Of a stretch of 64,000 bases of DNA, positions 1-18,968 are shown piece by piece. The position numbers and the translations under genes are program-made. Within the stretch, counting starts at the first letter, position 1; every line of letters starts with the position of its first letter. The notes beneath the pieces were generated by a model. It was not told the origin of the DNA. It searched no databases and saw nothing but the letters and a program-made list of their open reading frames with translations. Location: the NCBI GenBank assembly GCA_022340245.1, contig JAJDOI010000016.1, forward strand, positions 1 through 64,000, written 5' to 3'. This stretch comes from Thiogranum sp. (GTDB taxonomy: Bacteria > Pseudomonadota > Gammaproteobacteria > DSM-19610).

Positions 1-1193
1 AACACCCGCTTGAGATAGTCGATCTCCCCTTCTTCGAGAATCAGATCGTTCCGGTTGTCCATGACGTAAATCTTCTTGCTGTTATGCAGGTAGTCCTCGA
101 TGGACTCAAGACTCATGCGTTTGATCATTTCGTCGCGGCTGATGGGCTTGTCCAGTCTGGCGTTGTAAAACGGGTAGAAGAACCGGTGAAAGTAGTCGGT
201 GAATCCCAGGCGCATGGCCACTTTAGCGTAGACGCCGGGAGAACTGTTGCGGCCCAGTATCACGTTCTTCGGTTTGATAAAGCCGTAGTTCGTCATAACA
301 TCGGAGGTGAACGCCAGATTCGCCGAGGAAAAGCGGAACGACAATCCAACCAGGGCCGCAAGTTCTTCGTCTTTGGGTTTCAGCTCCTGGAAGACCTTAT
401 AAAGAAACTCTTCGCCCAGCTCCAGCTTGTTCTCGCGCGTATAGACCGCGCTGAAGGCTTTGACCATCTTGTCATAGAAACGGCTGAAGTTATCCGGCCC
501 GCCGGGAACATTTTCCAGCATGCGATCCAGCATGGAAATCGAGTTGTACAGCCTGACGGGCGGGTTTATCAGCAGCGCGTTCTTGAAGTTGAACACCTTG
601 CGCTGTTCGTCCAGCCAGGTGACAAAAGCGGTATTGAAGGCCCCCAGACTGTAGCCGGTTACATAGAAGTCAGTGACCTTGATGTCACCTTTGAACTTGT
701 TCCAGATGATCTCCATGACATTGTAGAGATCCTCGGCGTCGTGTATCGCGTGGCCCGGCACGCTGGTCTTCGAGGCAGCAACAATGAAGTTCGGCAAGGT
801 CGGGGACGACAGTGACACGACGTGATACCCGGCATTATAAAACGCTTTGGCCATGGCGACGTTTTTCTGCCCGTCGTAGGAACCCCCGGTACCGGCGATC
901 AGGAATATCAGCGGCGCAGGTTTGTCCTGAAAAGCATAGGAGTAGCGCAACTCCGACTCGTACCACAGATAATCGGGCACCTTGCGGTCCGGGAAGACAG
1001 TGAGGCGGGCACGCTTGAGCGGTGCCGGCGGGAAAGCCTTCTGGTAAGCCTCGGGGGTACCGACCACCGTAGCCGTGAAACTGTCCTGGATCGGATAACC
1101 GTAGGAGGAATCATCCGGTGACGATCCGGTGGCGGCCCAACCGGTGCTCAGCCAGACCAGCGCGGCCAGGAGAACACTCAACCTCTTTAACAT
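1..1193 (-). CDS. Exported alpha/beta-hydrolase-fold protein (3' end outside window)
   Basis: Open minus-strand frame from ATG at 1193 (MLKRLSVLLAALVWLSTGWA signal-like start) running off the left edge; contains GxSxG nucleophile elbow 'TGYSLGAF'. Not in the ORF track because it has no stop inside the window. Confidence 0.65.
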   Translation of the reverse strand, partial: MLKRLSVLLAALVWLSTGWAATGSSPDDSSYGYPIQDSFTATVVGTPEAYQKAFPPAPLKRARLTVFPDRKVPDYLWYESELRYSYAFQDKPAPLIFLIAGTGGSYDGQKNVAMAKAFYNAGYHVVSLSSPTLPNFIVAASKTSVPGHAIHDAEDLYNVMEIIWNKFKGDIKVTDFYVTGYSLGAFNTAFVTWLDEQRKVFNFKNALLINPPVRLYNSISMLDRMLENVPGGPDNFSRFYDKMVKAFSAVYTRENKLELGEEFLYKVFQELKPKDEELAALVGLSFRFSSANLAFTSDVMTNYGFIKPKNVILGRNSSPGVYAKVAMRLGFTDYFHRFFYPFYNARLDKPISRDEMIKRMSLESIEDYLHNSKKIYVMDNRNDLILEEGEIDYLKRV

Positions 1194-9499: not shown

Positions 9500-12400
9500 G
9501 TGCGCACACCTAGCGCAATCTGTTGCATCGTTGCATTGCTTGCCTGCCTCGCAGGGGCCGCGGTGTGGGCGGCACCGCCCGCGGCCGGCCCCGCGGGAGC
9601 ATCATCGCTTTCCAAAAGTGTCGTCGAGAGTCGGCTGAAAGAAGCCGAGTCCGCTTCGGATTTTGACGAGAAGACCAGAACCGCCCTGAAGGATCTCTAT
9701 CACAAGATACTCAGCAACCTGGAATCGGCACATAGCGACAGCGATTCCGCAAACATATTCAGCCAGGCGCGCGAAAAGGCCGGCGACGAAGCAAAGCAAC
9801 TGCGGGACAAGCTGGAGAAAGTCCAGCAGGAAAACCCGCCGGTAACCGTCAACGTCACCCACAGGACACCGCTGGCGGACGTTGAAAAGATGCTGCTAAA
9901 GGACAAGGCGGACTTCGCGGCAGTCGATGCCAAACTCAACAGCCTGGAACAGCTGCTGGACCAGGAAACGGCCCGCCCCGATCAGGCGAGACAACGGCTG
10001 ACGGAAGCCCGCCAGCAGCTCGATGCGCTCAACGCGCAGCTCAAACAGCCACCGGCGCAGGACGAGCCTTCCGTTTTGACCGAGGCCCGCCGCTGGAACC
10101 TGCAGTCACAGGTCAAGGCGCTGAATGCCGAGATCAATATGCTCGACCAGGAACTGCTGAGCCAGCCGATGCGCCTGGATCTGGTAAGGGCGCAACGCGA
10201 CACCACCACTCGCAACCGCAAGCGCATCGGGGAACGCATCAAGCTGCTGGAAGACGCACTCAACCAGAAACGCCGCAGCGAGGTCGAACAGGCGCGCGCG
10301 GAAGTCGAATCGGCACAGGGTGAATTCAAGAACAAACCTGCCCTGGTACAGGACTACGCGGCCCGCAACGCCGAGTTGAGCGACGAACTGACCGGCCTGA
10401 CCAACCAGCTGGAACAAGTCGCCTCCGGCGGCCAGATCACCAGTGACCGCGCGAAGCTCATCGAGGACGAATTCCGGCGCACCCAGCAAAAGCTGCAAGT
10501 GGCAGGTCTCAGCCAGTCCCTTGGGCAGATACTCCTGGAACAACGCCGTCTGTTACCGGACATGCGGGAAATCCGCAAGGCCGCGGGGGCACGTGAAAAA
10601 ACCATTGCCGAAACTGCCCTCGCACAGATCCAGCACAATGAAGCGCTGAAGAACCTGCAAAACCTCGGTGTCTACGTCGCCGACCTGACCGCCGGCCTGG
10701 ACCCGGAGACCGTGAGAAAGGTCCGCGCCGACCTGATGGATCTCGCCCGGACCCGGCGTAACCTGCTGGAAAAAATCGTCGCCACGGGTGAGAGCTACCT
10801 GCGCGCGCTGGGCGAACTCGACTACGCACAAAACCACTTGCTGGAAACCGTCAAGGCCTATGACAACTTCCTGGCCGAGCGCCTGTTGTGGGTACGCAGC
10901 GCACCCGCGCCCAGCCTTGCCATCCTTATGAACACACCCGCCCAGGTCGTGGATATTCTTTCGCCAGCCAGGTGGCTCGCTGTCCTGAATACGCTGGTGA
11001 ACCAGATGCTGGCCTCGCCCCTGGCAATCAGCATGCTGCTGCTGACCGCGCTGCTTCTTACCAGGAAAGGCGCAATCGTCCGGGCCCTGGTGGCGACAGG
11101 GAAAAATGTCAACAAACCCCGGGCCGACCAGTTCCGCTACACTGTGGAAGCGTTGGGGCTGACAATGCTGCTGGTACTGCCCTGGCCAATGCTGCTGTGG
11201 ACCATCGGCTGGACGTTGTCTACGTCGCTCGAGGCGGGTAACTTCGAGCGCGCCGTAGCGCGTGCGCTGATGGTTGTCAGCCCGGCGTTTCTGTACCTCA
11301 GTGGATTCCGCGCCCTGTGCCGTTCGAGCGGCGTGGCTATCGTGCATTTCCGCTGGCCGGAGAACAGCACGCGGGCGCTGCGTCGCCAGATCAGCATACT
11401 CATGGCGGTTTTCGTGCCGGCGGCAATCGTAGCCGTGATCAGCATACGCAGCACCGGCACGGCCGAGGGCGCCCTGGGCCGGATTGCGTTTGTCGTCTTT
11501 ATCAGCGCGCTTTCCTGGTTCTTTTACCGGCTTCTCGGTCCCAATAAACCGGTACTGGAAGCCGAACTCAGGGGACATCCTGACAGCCCCCTGGCACGTT
11601 ATCGCTACCTGTGGCTGGTACTGGCAATGATCATCCCGGTGCTCCTGATCGTGCTCGCGGTGAGCGGCTTTCTGTATACCGCGGGTACACTGACCGGCAG
11701 CCTGATAGACACCCTGTGGCTGGTCCTGGGCTTTCTGGTGATCCACCAGGCCGCCGTGCGGTGGCTGCTGCTCTCGCGCCGCAAGCTCGCCTTTGACGCC
11801 GCGGTGGAACGGCGCAGGGCCGCGCTGGCGAGTCAGCAAGGTAGCCAGGAGACGGCCGAAATACCCCATGACGAAACCGAGCTCGAGGAACCCGAGATCA
11901 ACCTGGTGGCGCTGAACCAGGAAAGTCTGAAACTGTTGAACGCCGCTATCGCTTTCGGCGCTATCACCGGGCTGTGGTTCATCTGGTCGAACGTGCTGCC
12001 GGCATTCGGCCGCCTCGACCATATTGACCTGTGGCACTACAAGGGCATGATTAACGGCGAGGAAGGCATGCTGCCGGTGACAGTCGCCGATGTTCTGCTG
12101 GCCGCACTTTTTTTGCTTGTCACTCTAGTTGCCGCGCGGCGTTTTCCCGCGCTGCTGGAAATCGTTCTGTTGAAGCGCGTGTCTGTTACGCCAGGTGGCC
12201 GCTACACGGCAACCAAGGTGGCACGCTATACCATAGCCGCCGTCGGGGTTCTGCTGGCACTGAACACGCTCGGCGTCAGGTGGTCGCAGGTACAATGGAT
12301 GGCGGCTGCCCTGAGTGTGGGCATCGGCTTCGGTTTGCAGGAAATCGTCGCCAACTTTATCAGTGGCCTGATTATCCTGTTCGAGCGCCCCATCCGCGTG

Positions 12401-12886
12401 GGCGACGTTGTCACGGTGGGTGATACCGACGGCGTGGTGACGCGCATCCAGATCCGTGCCACCACCATCCGTACCTGGGACCGCCAGGAACTGCTGGTGC
12501 CCAACAAGGAGTTCATCACCAGCCGCCTGCTGAACTGGTCGTTGTCCGACCAGACGACACGGCTGCGCATACCGGTGGGCGTGGCCTACGGCAGCGACGT
12601 GCAGAAAGCCATGACGCTGATGCGCGAGGTCGCCGAGCAGAACCGTCTGATTCTGGACGATCCCGTGCCCTACGCGCTGTTCCGGGAGTTCGGCGACAAT
12701 ACCCTGAATCTCGAGCTCCGCTGCTTTGTCGGAACCCAGGACGACCGGCTGCCCGCCTCATCCCAACTGCACGAAGCGATCAACGACCGCTTCAATCAAA
12801 ACGGTATTGTCATCGCGTTCCCGCAGCGCGACGTGCACCTGGATACCAGCGAGCCGCTGGATGTGCGCATTCATCCGCAGACCTGA
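9500..12886 (+). CDS. MscK/KefA-type mechanosensitive ion channel
   Basis: Signal peptide, long periplasmic coiled coil, multiple TMs, C-terminal MscS domain 'LSVGIGFGLQEIVANFISGLIILFERPIRVGDVVTVG'; 1128 aa. Confidence 0.88.
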   Translation: MRTPSAICCIVALLACLAGAAVWAAPPAAGPAGASSLSKSVVESRLKEAESASDFDEKTRTALKDLYHKILSNLESAHSDSDSANIFSQAREKAGDEAKQLRDKLEKVQQENPPVTVNVTHRTPLADVEKMLLKDKADFAAVDAKLNSLEQLLDQETARPDQARQRLTEARQQLDALNAQLKQPPAQDEPSVLTEARRWNLQSQVKALNAEINMLDQELLSQPMRLDLVRAQRDTTTRNRKRIGERIKLLEDALNQKRRSEVEQARAEVESAQGEFKNKPALVQDYAARNAELSDELTGLTNQLEQVASGGQITSDRAKLIEDEFRRTQQKLQVAGLSQSLGQILLEQRRLLPDMREIRKAAGAREKTIAETALAQIQHNEALKNLQNLGVYVADLTAGLDPETVRKVRADLMDLARTRRNLLEKIVATGESYLRALGELDYAQNHLLETVKAYDNFLAERLLWVRSAPAPSLAILMNTPAQVVDILSPARWLAVLNTLVNQMLASPLAISMLLLTALLLTRKGAIVRALVATGKNVNKPRADQFRYTVEALGLTMLLVLPWPMLLWTIGWTLSTSLEAGNFERAVARALMVVSPAFLYLSGFRALCRSSGVAIVHFRWPENSTRALRRQISILMAVFVPAAIVAVISIRSTGTAEGALGRIAFVVFISALSWFFYRLLGPNKPVLEAELRGHPDSPLARYRYLWLVLAMIIPVLLIVLAVSGFLYTAGTLTGSLIDTLWLVLGFLVIHQAAVRWLLLSRRKLAFDAAVERRRAALASQQGSQETAEIPHDETELEEPEINLVALNQESLKLLNAAIAFGAITGLWFIWSNVLPAFGRLDHIDLWHYKGMINGEEGMLPVTVADVLLAALFLLVTLVAARRFPALLEIVLLKRVSVTPGGRYTATKVARYTIAAVGVLLALNTLGVRWSQVQWMAAALSVGIGFGLQEIVANFISGLIILFERPIRVGDVVTVGDTDGVVTRIQIRATTIRTWDRQELLVPNKEFITSRLLNWSLSDQTTRLRIPVGVAYGSDVQKAMTLMREVAEQNRLILDDPVPYALFREFGDNTLNLELRCFVGTQDDRLPASSQLHEAINDRFNQNGIVIAFPQRDVHLDTSEPLDVRIHPQT

Positions 12887-13600: not shown

Positions 13601-14590
13601 CTAGTTGAGTCGCGGCGCCCAGCGCAGGCAGTGAACACTGAACAGCTGCTGATCGTCCGTCCACACCCGTTCGGCGACGAAGCCGCTTGACGCGGCCAGC
13701 GCCTGGAATTCAGCGATATCGTATTTATACGAATTCTCGGTATGCAGCGATTCGCCCGCAGCGAAGGCAATGGGACTGCCCGCCACCATGACCTGCTGGG
13801 GACCCCTGCTTAGCAGGTGCATTTCGACGCGCCCGGCCTGCTCGTTAAAGAACGCCCGGTGCTCAAAGCGCTCGAGATCGAAATCGCCGCCCAGCTCCCG
13901 GTTGATGCGCTGCAGCAGATTGAGGTTGAACGCCGCCGTGAGCCGCTGCGCATCGTTGTAGGCCGCGTGCAGGATAGCGTTGTCTTTTTTCAGATCGACG
14001 CCGATCAGCAGCCTGCCGTCCTGGCCCAGGTGCGCGCCGACCCGGCGCATCAGCGCGCAGGCCTCGGCAGGTTCGAAGTTACCGATGCTGGATCCAGGGA
14101 AAAACGCCGCCCGCCGCAGCTGCCCCGGCAGCTCGGGCAGCTCAAACTCAGTACTGTAATCGGTACAGGCCGCGTGCACGTCCAGGTGCGGATAGTCCTT
14201 TGCCAGGGCTTTGGCCGAACTCAGCAGGTGATCGCGGGAGATATCCAGGGGGACGTAAGCCGCGGGTCGCAAGGCGTCCAGCAGCACGCGGATCTTGCGA
14301 CTGCTGCCGCTGCCGAGCTCCATCAACAGGCAGTCATCACCAAGGAACTCTGCGATCTGTTCGCCGTTGGCTTCCAGGATATTAAGCTCGGTGCGGGTCG
14401 GGTAGTACTCGGGAAGCTCGGTGATCGCATCGAACAGCTGCGAGCCCCGCTGGTCATAGAAGTACTTCGGCGGAATCTGCTTCGGCCGTTTGCTCAGCCC
14501 CCCGAGCACCTCGGCCTTGATATCCGCTACAGGCGGATGATAGTCATAGAAATGTATGCTTCCGTTCATAGTTGTCTGCGTGTGGGGCAA
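13601..14590 (-). CDS. egtD: L-histidine N-alpha-methyltransferase (ergothioneine pathway EgtD family)
   Basis: 'PPKYFYDQRGSQLFDAITELPEYYPTRTE', 'LMELGSGSSRKIRVLLDAL', 'FFPGSSIGNFEP', 'LHTENSYKYD'. An in-frame ATG at 14569 is also possible. Confidence 0.9.
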   Translation of the reverse strand: MPHTQTTMNGSIHFYDYHPPVADIKAEVLGGLSKRPKQIPPKYFYDQRGSQLFDAITELPEYYPTRTELNILEANGEQIAEFLGDDCLLMELGSGSSRKIRVLLDALRPAAYVPLDISRDHLLSSAKALAKDYPHLDVHAACTDYSTEFELPELPGQLRRAAFFPGSSIGNFEPAEACALMRRVGAHLGQDGRLLIGVDLKKDNAILHAAYNDAQRLTAAFNLNLLQRINRELGGDFDLERFEHRAFFNEQAGRVEMHLLSRGPQQVMVAGSPIAFAAGESLHTENSYKYDIAEFQALAASSGFVAERVWTDDQQLFSVHCLRWAPRLN

Positions 14591-14675
14591 GCGATGCGCT
14601 GCACGCGGGCTAACCTTACGCGCCGGCGCCGCGGACTGTCAAATCACCCACATCAGGGGGCTGATGACTGGTCGA

Positions 14676-15395
14676 CTAGAAGCGCTGTATTTTCTTGCCG
14701 ATCAGCTTGTCACGGACCTTCCAGAACAACCTGTCGGGATTGACGACCACGATAAAAATCTTCCGCATCCGGTCTTCGGGGCACGTCAGGGCCCGCACGC
14801 CGTGCCAGGCGCGGTCACTGCGTTCGAGGATCGCACTGACATTACCTCTGGATTTGCACGTGATTATGTTTTTGAAATCCTCAAAGGCCGGTGCCGAGTC
14901 CGGATCGAGTTGCCCACCGTCATCCAGCACGAGAGTTTCACCGCCCCAGGACGGATCCCAGTCGTCTTCGGTATTGAAGTAGAACAGGTGCGAACCGTGT
15001 TCGCGTTTGGCGTCACAGTGCGGCGACACCGAACAACCGCTGGGTGCGTAGTGCCAGTGGAAACGGAATTCCACCTTGCGCGCCTCGAACAGACGCCCAA
15101 TGGCATTGCGATAACGATCACTGCGCAACTCGGCGATGAAGTCGATCCACGGCTGCGGCACGTCGATCCCTTCTTCATACTCCAGCGAATAACGGTCGTG
15201 GGGCTGCTGTCCGGCCCGGCGCTGGTAACCGAATTTCTGCTCAAACAGCGAAAAATCCGGCATGTTGAGGCGCAAGGCCTCGAAACCTTCGTCGGTCAGC
15301 AGCTTTTCCGGGTTCGCCCAGGGATAGGGTGTCTGTTGCCGGAAAGTTTCCACATCGATGGCGTCAAGGGCATCGAAATCAATATACCGGGACAT
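14676..15395 (-). CDS. 2-oxoglutarate/Fe(II)-dependent oxygenase-like protein
   Basis: HxD-like 'SPHCDAKREHGSHLFYFNTEDDWDPSWGGETLVLDDGG' and distal 'ERSDRAWHGVRAL' of the prolyl-4-hydroxylase-like cupin fold. Confidence 0.72.
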   Translation of the reverse strand: MSRYIDFDALDAIDVETFRQQTPYPWANPEKLLTDEGFEALRLNMPDFSLFEQKFGYQRRAGQQPHDRYSLEYEEGIDVPQPWIDFIAELRSDRYRNAIGRLFEARKVEFRFHWHYAPSGCSVSPHCDAKREHGSHLFYFNTEDDWDPSWGGETLVLDDGGQLDPDSAPAFEDFKNIITCKSRGNVSAILERSDRAWHGVRALTCPEDRMRKIFIVVVNPDRLFWKVRDKLIGKKIQRF

Positions 15396-15408
15396 TTGCA
15401 GCTTCCTT

Positions 15409-16311
15409 TTATGCTGTCAACGGCGGCGTTCGCTCCACCAACTTAAGCGCGTCATGGCGCACGTGATTCTTTTGCATTTCATCGTGCAGCAACGACTCAC
15501 TGACGATGCCTTGCTCAAGACACTCCTTCAGCAGGCCGAAGAAGAAGCGCTCCTGGTTCTTGTCCGGATGCGCGTGATAGCGCCCGAGCAGGGCATATTC
15601 ACCAAACAGCCCGGCGCGCAGGCGATTGAAAAACCCCAGCAACGGGTATTTTCTCAGCTTGTCGGCCGGTGTGAAATCGACCGGCAGACCGGTTTTCCAC
15701 GGCTGGGTGCGGCGCTTGGTGTTGTGCAGCATGCGCGTCTTGTCCGTCAGACGGTCGAAGTCATTCCACTCGTCTTCGAAATAGCCGACATTCTCCGGCG
15801 ATTCATCGCGCAGGCACATCCACGCCTTGTAGTCGCGTTCGAAGCGGAACAGCTCGTCGAACTCCTTTTCCGCATCCCAGTGCCTCAGTCGGGCGCAGTC
15901 CATCAGCATGACACTGGTAGCGACACACTGGCCCTTTTCGCGGTTTTTGGAGCGATGGCGACCCATCACGCCCTTGCCCTGCATGTCGCGGTCGAAAAGT
16001 TCGTTGATGTCACCGACGGCAAATATATCGGGATCGATGACAATCGCTCGTCCCTCGTAGCCCATCAGTTTGGGTGGCAGAAAACGCAGGGGAGTAAAGG
16101 ACTGCAGGTCATCGAGGTGCCAGATACGGGTCGTGCCGCCGCGCAGAAAGGGCTGGCCCTCCTTGCGCTTGAGGAAGTCGAAGTCCTTGACCTGCAGGAA
16201 TTCGATGCTGAAGGCGTCGGGGTTGGCCGAATTGCGCTTCAGCGCATAAGCCGCCACCAGCGCGCCGACCCATTGCTTTTCGTTGGTGTGGATATAGACG
16301 CGTTTCTTCAT
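15409..16311 (-). CDS. Uncharacterised protein resembling GT-A nucleotide-sugar transferases
   Basis: 'YEGRAIVIDPDIFAVGDINELFD' resembles the DxD region of GT-A folds; N-terminal 'RVYIHTNEKQWVGALVAAYAL'. Weak family call. Confidence 0.5.
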   Translation of the reverse strand: MKKRVYIHTNEKQWVGALVAAYALKRNSANPDAFSIEFLQVKDFDFLKRKEGQPFLRGGTTRIWHLDDLQSFTPLRFLPPKLMGYEGRAIVIDPDIFAVGDINELFDRDMQGKGVMGRHRSKNREKGQCVATSVMLMDCARLRHWDAEKEFDELFRFERDYKAWMCLRDESPENVGYFEDEWNDFDRLTDKTRMLHNTKRRTQPWKTGLPVDFTPADKLRKYPLLGFFNRLRAGLFGEYALLGRYHAHPDKNQERFFFGLLKECLEQGIVSESLLHDEMQKNHVRHDALKLVERTPPLTA

Positions 16312-16315
16312 TCCC

Positions 16316-17275
16316 TCAGGCTCCTGAGACCACCTCGCCCGCCGGTTCCTTCAACGGTGCCGGTGCCGGTTCACTGTGGTAACCGAACACCTCGGAGAGC
16401 CGCGAATCGACCATGCCATCGATTTCGGCGAGTTGCGTGTCGTCGAAGTAATCACGGTAACCGCCGACTTTGGCGCGACGCACCTTGTAGGAATGCGGGT
16501 TGTTGGGATCCTTGGCCTTTACGCGGCTGCCGCTGCGCCAGAAATAGTTTTCCTTTTCCATTTTCCTCAGGTTCTCCACCGTGGCGAATTCAACAGCGTC
16601 CCTGACGTGCTGTGCGTCGGGCTCCAGTCCGAGAAATTCGACAATGCGGGTCAGCTGTTGTTCCGTATCACTGCGCAGGTCTTCGTAGCGCACCAGCAAC
16701 AGATTCCTGATCCTGGGCAACTCGGTGGCCCAGACGTTCATGAAGTCGATAATGCGCGGCAGACCGACATCCGGGTTGGTGACAAAATCATGGACGGAGA
16801 GATCCGCCCCCGCCGGCGGGTAACGGTTCATGGCCATCTTGCCCGGGCGCATGCGGTACTTCCACTGGAAAAACTGCGACACGGCTACATCCTGGGGTCG
16901 CCGCACCAGCAACACGACCTTCTTGTCGTAGAAATCCTTTTTGTCACCCAGGTTGCCGGTATAACCGCGCAGGTAGTTATCGTGGGTGTAGAAGATCCGG
17001 GGTACGGCCGGGTTGATCTTGTGGAAGTTGTCGAAGCCCATGAGGATGCGCTCGGGCAGCGCGTAAGCCTGCTGGTAGTAGCGCGAGATCATGACGCGCA
17101 CCCAGGTCCGTCCACTCTTGCCGTAGGACGCAAAAATGTAATCGCAAAGCCTGTACTTGCGATACTCCTCCCGCCCCCGCCGCCAGCGCTCCAGCGCATG
17201 CGCCTGTTTCTGCGGCAGGAACACGGAAATTGCACGCACCAGCCAGCGCATGATCCGTTTGAAAATGATGTGCAT
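16316..17275 (-). CDS. Sulfotransferase domain protein
   Basis: PAPS-type 5'-phosphosulfate loop 'ASYGKSGRTWVRVMISRYYQ' and 'KKVVLLVRRPQDVAVSQFFQWKYR', 'LLVRYEDLRSDTEQQLTRIVEFLGLE'. Confidence 0.8.
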   Translation of the reverse strand: MHIIFKRIMRWLVRAISVFLPQKQAHALERWRRGREEYRKYRLCDYIFASYGKSGRTWVRVMISRYYQQAYALPERILMGFDNFHKINPAVPRIFYTHDNYLRGYTGNLGDKKDFYDKKVVLLVRRPQDVAVSQFFQWKYRMRPGKMAMNRYPPAGADLSVHDFVTNPDVGLPRIIDFMNVWATELPRIRNLLLVRYEDLRSDTEQQLTRIVEFLGLEPDAQHVRDAVEFATVENLRKMEKENYFWRSGSRVKAKDPNNPHSYKVRRAKVGGYRDYFDDTQLAEIDGMVDSRLSEVFGYHSEPAPAPLKEPAGEVVSGA

Positions 17276-17370: not shown

Positions 17371-17455
17371 TGGTGCCGACGGCCGGAGTCGAACCGGCAC
17401 GGCTTACGCCACTACCCCCTCAAGATAGCGTGTCTACCAATTCCACCACGTCGGC
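17371..17455 (-). tRNA. tRNA-Leu (anticodon GAG)
   Basis: Reverse complement GCCGACGTGGTGGAATTGGTAGACACGCTATCTTGAGGGGGTAGTGGCGTAAGCCGTGCCGGTTCGACTCCGGCCGTCGGCACCA: paired acceptor stem, class II variable arm, GGTTCGACTCC T-arm, encoded CCA. Confidence 0.95.
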
Positions 17456-17465
17456 GATAGCGTCT

Positions 17466-17975
17466 TTATTGCGGTTTTTTGGCCGCGGAATCCTTGGGTG
17501 CTGAATCCTTTGCTGCCGTATCTCCGGTTACCGGGACGTCGGCGGCCGGTACCGGCTTGACCGCCACCTCTGGAGCAGCGGCGGGCGCCGTGTCCAGGCC
17601 ACCCGTCTCATCCACCTCGGGCAGGTCCGCCGGCGGCAGGTCGACACTGCTGTCTGCGCCCGGCGTGCCTTCGGCGGGCGGCGTTTCCGGCTTCGGCGCT
17701 GCGGGGATCTTGGCGGCAATGCTGCTCTCGGACGGGTGCCGGTCACCGAGCACCAGCGGCGACGACAGCAACACGCTGTTGATGAAGAACGCCGCCGCGA
17801 GAACGCCCGTGGCACGGGTGAAAAAGGATCCGGTGCCGCGGGCGCCGAAAACCGTGCCCGACGCACCCGCCCCGAAAGCGGCGCCCATATCGGCGCCCTT
17901 GCCCTGCTGCAGCAGCACCAGGCCAATAATGGCAACACCGAGCAATACCTGAAGAATCAATAAGGCTGTAAACAT
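17466..17975 (-). CDS. secG: Preprotein translocase subunit SecG with long C-terminal extension
   Basis: MFTALLILQVLLGVAIIGLVLLQQGKGADMGAAFGAGASGTVFGARG... adjacent to tRNA-Leu and tpiA (classic synteny). Confidence 0.92.
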   Translation of the reverse strand: MFTALLILQVLLGVAIIGLVLLQQGKGADMGAAFGAGASGTVFGARGTGSFFTRATGVLAAAFFINSVLLSSPLVLGDRHPSESSIAAKIPAAPKPETPPAEGTPGADSSVDLPPADLPEVDETGGLDTAPAAAPEVAVKPVPAADVPVTGDTAAKDSAPKDSAAKKPQ

Positions 17976-18045: not shown

Positions 18046-18798
18046 CTAACCACCGGCCTTGCAAATCGCCAGAAACTCGCCGGCATCCAGCGAGGCGCCG
18101 CCGATCAGGCCACCATCGATATCCGGCATGGCGAACAACTCGGCGGCGTTGGCACCCTTGACGCTGCCGCCATAGAGAATCTGTACCTTGTCGGCAACCG
18201 CCTGGTCGAGACCGGCGAGCTTGCCGCGGATAAAGGCGTGTACGTCCTGCGCCTGCTGCGGGCTGGCCGTCTTGCCGGTACCGATTGCCCAGACCGGCTC
18301 GTAAGCGAGGACACACTCACCGATGGCGCCAATACCTTCCAGCGCGATGACCGCGTCCAGCTGCCGGGCGACCACCTGTTCGGTGACACCCTGCTCGCGT
18401 TCCCCCAGGCTTTCCCCCACGCACAGGATCGGGGTCAGGCCGGTGCGGCGCGCCGCGGCAAACTTGCGTGCGGTGAAATCGTCGTCTTCCGCGTACAGGC
18501 TGCGGCGTTCCGAGTGACCGACGATGGCATAAGTGCAGCCAAATTCCCCAAGCATGGCGCCTGCCACCTCGCCGGTAAAAGCGCCGGTATCCTGGTCACT
18601 GATATCCTGGCTGCCCCAAGCGACCTTGCTGCCGGCCAGCAGCTCGGCAACCAGCGGAATGTAAACAAACGGCGGGCAGACCGCAATGCGGGTGTTGCCG
18701 GCATCGCCTTCACCGGCGGTAATCCCTGAAACGAGTGTTTTAATGCTGTCCAGCGAACCGTTCAGTTTCCAGTTCCCTGCCACCAGTATCTGCCGCAT
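18046..18798 (-). CDS. tpiA: Triosephosphate isomerase
   Basis: MRQILVAGNWKLNG, 'YAIVGHSERR', 'LAYEPVWAIGTG', 'ILYGGSVKGANAAEL'; start moved from 18855 to the ATG after GGAGATGGGC. Confidence 0.95.
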   Translation of the reverse strand: MRQILVAGNWKLNGSLDSIKTLVSGITAGEGDAGNTRIAVCPPFVYIPLVAELLAGSKVAWGSQDISDQDTGAFTGEVAGAMLGEFGCTYAIVGHSERRSLYAEDDDFTARKFAAARRTGLTPILCVGESLGEREQGVTEQVVARQLDAVIALEGIGAIGECVLAYEPVWAIGTGKTASPQQAQDVHAFIRGKLAGLDQAVADKVQILYGGSVKGANAAELFAMPDIDGGLIGGASLDAGEFLAICKAGG

Positions 18799-18968
18799 GC
18801 CCATCTCCTGCAAGCCCTTGAAAATAGCCGCGTAGACTAGCGATCCGGGGCGCAAAAAGCAAATTTTTTAATGCTGCCGCGGGCCCCATTCCCCCTGTTT
18901 ACCGGGGGTTTAGTTGACTGATTCCGATACCAATTTATACTGCCGGGAGCGAATATCAGGAGACCCTT

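Follow-up and report, generated by a model that had tools for sequence, protein, structure and literature searches.

Does a gene for a histidine trimethyltransferase that lies in line with three putative tailoring genes, and has no egtB beside it, belong to a pathway of its own? The question is raised by a 64,000-nucleotide stretch of Thiogranum sp. DNA (contig JAJDOI010000016.1; the whole stretch is termed the window), in which genes for a sulfotransferase (ST), a glycosyltransferase (GT), a 2-oxoglutarate (2OG)-Fe(II) oxygenase (OG) and EgtD form one block at positions 13,601 to 17,275. A first-pass annotation, made from the DNA letters alone, had proposed either a tailoring pathway for a sulfated or hydroxylated metabolite or surface glycan, or that EgtD is simply a neighbour, and our analysis favours two of these options, surface-glycan tailoring and EgtD as a neighbour. 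We consider it probable that the block comprises two functionally independent units, which have become neighbours at a broken chromosomal junction, and that the ST-GT-OG trio is a module for the decoration of lipopolysaccharide (LPS) or another surface glycan.

The four open reading frames (ORFs) were confirmed on the minus strand (Table 1), co-directional and separated by gaps of 4, 13 and 85 nt as first described, and the identities initially given to their products (sulfotransferase, GT-A-like protein, 2OG-Fe(II) oxygenase-like protein and EgtD homologue) were upheld by profiles, motifs and predicted folds. ST scored over the cut-off for PF00685 (Sulfotransfer_1; E-value 2.9e-20, 73.2 bits against a cut-off of 22). 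Its nearest solved structures are the glycopeptide sulfotransferases TEG12 and Teg14, with the SULTs next, and by eye a 5'-phosphosulfate-binding-like loop (SYGKSGRTW), a 3'-phosphate-binding-like motif (RRPQDVAVS) and a T-H ahead of NYLRGY can be recognised. For GT no Pfam family was above cut-off, PF01501 (GT8) reaching 14.1 bits (E-value 0.035) against a cut-off of 24.3, and a GT profile gave no relevant match to the sequences of solved structures. The AlphaFold2 model of GT (predicted local distance difference test score, pLDDT, 80.7) had LgtC (1g9r) as its top Foldseek match (E-value 3.3e-8), the other matches being GT8-type enzymes with modest TM-scores of about 0.44, and a DPD (DxD) motif at residues 93-95 is invariant in the 20 homologues aligned. 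We describe GT as GT8-like on the strength of its predicted fold only, and do not claim membership of the GT8 family for it. OG fell just below the cut-off for PF13640 (2OG-FeII_Oxy_3; 24 bits against 27). Its metal triad and 2OG-binding arginine (H126-x-D128, H198 and R211) are invariant in homologues down to 38% identity, and its AlphaFold2 model (pLDDT 86.5) has a prolyl 4-hydroxylase (P4H)-type fold that best matched PasI and PolD, then Tpa1 and PHD2.

EgtD, the product of the single Methyltransf_33 gene in this genome, scored 414.9 bits for the TIGR03438 equivalog (cut-off 290.9) and 387 bits for PF10017 (Methyltransf_33; E-value 6.3e-116). It matched Mycobacterium smegmatis EgtD (4uy6) with an E-value of 2.8e-64 and keeps, in a TE-x-S motif, the equivalents of E282 and S284, which we take to be histidine-binding residues of that enzyme. 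The TTG start codon at 14590 is probably not used, since the alignment with relatives begins at the internal ATG, position 14569 (for example MNGRLHFYDYHP in the congener G002), and the gap between OG and EgtD would therefore be about 106 nt.

To consider what the trio may do, we surveyed the surroundings of its relatives. The genus and its sister genus g2 carry one to seven GT copies in each genome; among the 56 relatives searched, the only other match was a weak one. A second GT lies within 1.5 kb of 31 of the 59 copies listed, and many of the others adjoin ST or OG. The window's own genome (G000; 3.41 Mb in 238 contigs, 92% complete) has further GT copies on contigs C11, C119 and C157; the pair on C11 has cytochrome oxidase-type genes on one side and a UbiA prenyltransferase gene on the other, and some GT-family copies are inserted among cytochrome oxidase genes.

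It can be seen that paralogues of ST and GT occur in the context of genes for ELM1-type glycosyltransferases and lipid A acyltransferases, and that distant OGs (51-53% identical; Wenzhouxiangella, Binatia and Salinicola) are encoded downstream of GT8-like/ELM1 fusion proteins. Because of these neighbours and fusions, we hold with moderate confidence that LPS or another surface glycan is the likeliest substrate of the trio; the surface-glycan option of the first-pass annotation is favoured by the same paralogues and by the closeness of the GT fold to LgtC. On an LPS-like acceptor, and in the presumed order of reactions, GT would transfer a sugar taken from a nucleotide-sugar, OG would hydroxylate one of the acceptor's carbons, and ST would sulfate a hydroxyl using 3'-phosphoadenosine 5'-phosphosulfate (PAPS). 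The target of the trio could instead be a protein, a lipid or a small metabolite that is secreted, with EgtD still a neighbour. In favour of this, the enzymes of solved structure that are closest to ST act on glycopeptide antibiotics (TEG12), and those closest to OG have a nucleoside-type compound, amino acids or proteins as their substrates (PasI, PolD, P4H); in clade A the trio is followed by an alpha/beta hydrolase gene and, convergent to it, an acyltransferase/AMP-ligase gene. However, the GT fold is nearest to that of an LPS galactosyltransferase, the paralogue and fusion contexts point to glycans, and in the loci read we noticed no gene for a nonribosomal peptide synthetase (NRPS) or polyketide synthase around the trio, so that we regard this alternative as unlikely.

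We found that the absence of EgtB from the window, which was not contradicted, is probably a window-edge effect. The genome check for egtB suggested in the first-pass annotation located an egtC-egtB operon on contig C229, with egtB itself present as a fragment only (1-678, minus strand) that encodes the N-terminal 226 amino acids from the start codon to the contig end and covers DinB_2 and the start of the FGE-sulfatase domain, with an HNSQH motif. The adjoining egtC, the end of which overlaps the start of egtB, is over the TIGR03442 cut-off (222.8 against 218.65 bits). The order egtB-egtC-phoB-phoR-pstS is the same as in G002 and G006, and we therefore assign C229 to this lineage; contamination was ruled out by the synteny with congeners. 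Among 17 genomes of the genus, this one included, some match to this EgtB was seen in 16 (weak only in G013) and none in G005, and egtC was beside egtB wherever neighbours were read, in G003 beside an egtB fragment.

Two arrangements of egtD were distinguished. In type-1 congeners (G001, G003, G007, G008, G010 and G012) and in G017, of a sister genus, egtD is transcribed divergently from egtC-egtB, and its product is 41-43% identical to EgtD of the window; the G003 region is similar to this layout, its sequence containing runs of N. In type-2 genomes (that of the window, G002, G004, G006, G011, G014 and G016) egtCB has no adjoining egtD, and a different EgtD (EgtD2) is encoded behind secG-tRNA-Leu. 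It therefore appears that, in part of one genus, a second EgtD at a new site has taken the place of the one linked to egtCB. The EgtD2 of the window would make hercynine for an ergothioneine-type pathway, with the egtC-egtB operon elsewhere in the genome. A variant compatible with this, that EgtD feeds selenoneine synthesis of the SenA type, would find support in the full-length EgtB relatives encoded beside egtC (L191:6663-7817 and L197:4644-5792), which score 287-290 bits for SenA against 271-279 for EgtB, below both cut-offs. We think it distinctly improbable, since the partner gene is an egtC, part of the gamma-glutamylcysteine route of EgtB, which favours ergothioneine as the product route, and no SenB-like neighbour was noticed. 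Both routes begin with hercynine, so EgtD has a partner in either case.

The ST-GT-OG trio is a unit distinct from EgtD. The order tpiA-secG-egtD is found without the trio there in G002, G004 and G014, and outside the genus the trio is found without egtD, as far as the flanks were read, in at least five genomes, BM003, bin107, VeSed34, bin74 and Ww342 (loci L090, L096, L097, L099 and L124). In G006, G011 and G016 (the last read over two contigs) egtD is followed by ST-GT-OG; the window order differs, the trio being ahead of egtD, so that in four congeners (G006, G011, G015 and G016) the trio lies on the opposite side of egtD, or of its remnant, from that in the window. The remnant, in G015, is a C-terminal piece of 23 aligned residues beside an intact trio (L073:4380-4448, G015:C91); the contig runs on into other genes past it, a different EgtD is encoded on C54, and mis-assembly is possible. 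Conserved co-occurrence, to which the first-pass annotation had looked for evidence of a joint pathway, was found in part: the linkage recurs, but is confined to a small clade within a single genus, where the order is a different one. A concatenated trio tree grouped the window with G011, G006, G015 and G016 (support 100/99), and a grouping of the window with BM003 was rejected (approximately unbiased test, p-AU 0.0025). Since the tree unites the window with these four congeners, the linkage probably arose once in the clade and was rearranged later, although two separate insertions at the same spot may also have produced it. Restriction to a clade fits shared descent and rearrangement rather than a common pathway.

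A single four-gene pathway, in which hercynine made by EgtD is glycosylated, hydroxylated and sulfated into a betaine metabolite, has in its favour the co-directional genes with short gaps and the linkage in G006, G011, G016 and, with the remnant, G015, but is very hard to reconcile with egtCB elsewhere in the genome, with egtD2 and the trio each occurring without the other, with the decayed egtD beside an intact trio in G015, and with GT and ST paralogues that adjoin lipid A acyltransferase and ELM1 genes. The initial idea of a tailoring cluster with EgtD but without EgtB was likewise not supported, on account of the egtC-egtB operon and the separability of the units.

Several observations weigh against two independent units as we describe them. 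All five complete trios in the genus adjoin egtD2 or its remnant and all four window genes are co-directional, so a weak regulatory or functional tie between egtD and the trio may exist. The full-length EgtB relatives do not reach the cut-off of either family (420 bits for SenA, 360 for EgtB). In addition, no adenosine 5'-phosphosulfate (APS) kinase to supply PAPS was found in the 92%-complete genome, which gave only weak PF01583 matches and one Sat-like match that lacks the kinase part. Strong APS kinase matches were present in six congeners (one, when checked, was Sat-CysC), and a convincing APS kinase was also not found in G001 and G011, though PAPS-type sulfotransferases are present there.

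How the two units came together may be traced at the tRNA-Leu gene, which lies behind secG in every member of the genus where the site was read. The first-pass annotation had not listed this tRNA-Leu(GAG) gene. The order tpiA-secG-tRNA-Leu-nuoA-nuoB-nuoC is shared by type-1 congeners (G001, G003 and G008), G009 and further families of the class, and from this comparison of gene orders we take secG-tRNA-Leu-nuoA to be ancestral. In the window lineage tRNA-Leu no longer abuts nuoA, and egtD, the trio and other genes occupy the broken junction. A possible route from the order of the congeners to that of the window would be tandem duplication and reciprocal loss, converting tRNA-egtD-ST-GT-OG to tRNA-ST-GT-OG-egtD. 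Among 33 comparisons, no convincing intergenic remnants that would prove this were found, the spacer between OG and EgtD giving only a weak similarity to G014, with a score of 34 where shuffled sequences reached at most 27; the secG-ST spacer matches the secG-egtD spacer of relatives because both hold the tRNA. Since no integrase was noticed at the broken junction, and the window, G004 and C157 gave no tRNA 3'-end repeat of the kind that marks a classical integrated island, we speak of a rearranged junction; a mobile island was considered and dropped on these grounds and because the segment also contains gnd, pta-ackA and mscK.

The positions of the features are collected in Table 1. In G004 (L080, G004:C36:1-20000) about 20 kb separate nuoA from tRNA-Leu, and this segment holds, from nuoA, genes for ST, GT, ST, an ELM1 glycosyltransferase, another 2OG oxygenase and ST, then for a periplasmic binding protein, mlaA, a 6-phosphogluconate dehydrogenase-type protein, a glycogen-debranching-type protein, a DUF481 protein, mscK and egtD. 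Gene order in the left part of the window follows this segment, pta-ackA and an extra SYLF gene excepted. On contig C157 (L087) nuoA is followed by ST, GT, a lipid A acyltransferase gene and ST. Past egtD in the window, the first conserved gene to follow is mscK; in G004 and G014 it occupies that side of egtD too, and in G016 it is found past the trio. Promoter and terminator scans gave signal near chance level.

Table 1. Positions of the genes of the block and its flanks in the window, and of fusion genes upstream of OG homologues at other loci
Feature	Position	Strand	Remarks
ST, PAPS-type sulfotransferase	16316..17275	-	319 aa; PF00685
GT, GT8/LgtC-like glycosyltransferase	15409..16311	-	300 aa; LgtC-like predicted fold, DPD
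OG, P4H-type 2OG-Fe(II) oxygenase	14676..15395	-	239 aa; HxD...H and Arg, predicted fold
EgtD, histidine N-alpha-trimethyltransferase	13601..14569	-	TIGR03438, PF10017; longer reading from TTG 14590
tRNA-Leu (anticodon GAG), between secG and ST	17371..17455	-	ARAGORN
secG, backbone gene	17466..17975	-	synteny tpiA-secG-tRNA-Leu in genus and other families
tpiA, backbone gene	18046..18855	-	match in 35/39 related genomes; synteny with secG
MscK-type mechanosensitive channel	9500..12886	+	PF12794, PF12795, PF00924
GT8-like + ELM1 (PF06258) fusion	L146:7711-9969		upstream of OG homologue
GT8-like + ELM1 (PF06258) fusion	L157:7408-10005		upstream of OG homologue
GT8-like + ELM1 (PF06258) fusion	L115:4739-7213		upstream of OG homologue

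We conclude that the block in the window is an ordinary EgtD beside a probable glycan-decoration trio. With that, an apparent instance of EgtD lacking EgtB would be explained, the neighbourhood of egtD and the trio is seen as a product of chromosome rearrangement at tRNA-Leu, and the ST-GT8-2OG set, which recurs in Thiohalobacter-related Gammaproteobacteria, becomes a candidate for the making of sulfated surface glycans. More tentatively, it is possible that this set is a recurrent, undescribed gammaproteobacterial module that builds a sulfated, hydroxylated sugar on the LPS core or a surface glycan, with the GT expansion restricted to the Thiohalobacter-like family and with relatives forming GT8-ELM1/2OG systems in Binatia, Wenzhouxiangella and Salinicola; a literature search for a link between ELM1, sulfotransferases and LPS found nothing useful.

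Each of the four proteins resembles a known system and departs from it. ST shares the Sulfotransfer_1 domain and recognisable PAPS motifs with TEG12/Teg14 and other PAPS sulfotransferases, but is linked here to GT8-like and 2OG genes and not to an NRPS cluster. GT shares the fold and the invariant DxD motif of the GT8 family and LgtC, but is 17% identical to LgtC, below the Pfam GT8 cut-off and expanded within its lineage. OG has the P4H-type fold, HxD...H and arginine of PasI, PolD, Tpa1 and PHD2, yet is 11-20% identical to the best-ranked of these structures and is linked to GT8-like genes. EgtD matches the M. smegmatis enzyme over its whole length, far above the TIGR03438 cut-off and with the presumed histidine-binding residues kept, but represents a second EgtD lineage, sited at tRNA-Leu and not beside egtB. 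Dispersal of the pathway genes has a precedent in Methylobacterium strain 22A, which carries egtA, egtC and egtE away from egtBD; the egtBD cluster is missing from some Methylobacterium species (PMC4621440). The genes stand at separate loci there, as does egtD in the window lineage, but in the latter it is egtC and egtB that stay joined and egtD that is apart, while relatives keep egtD beside egtCB.

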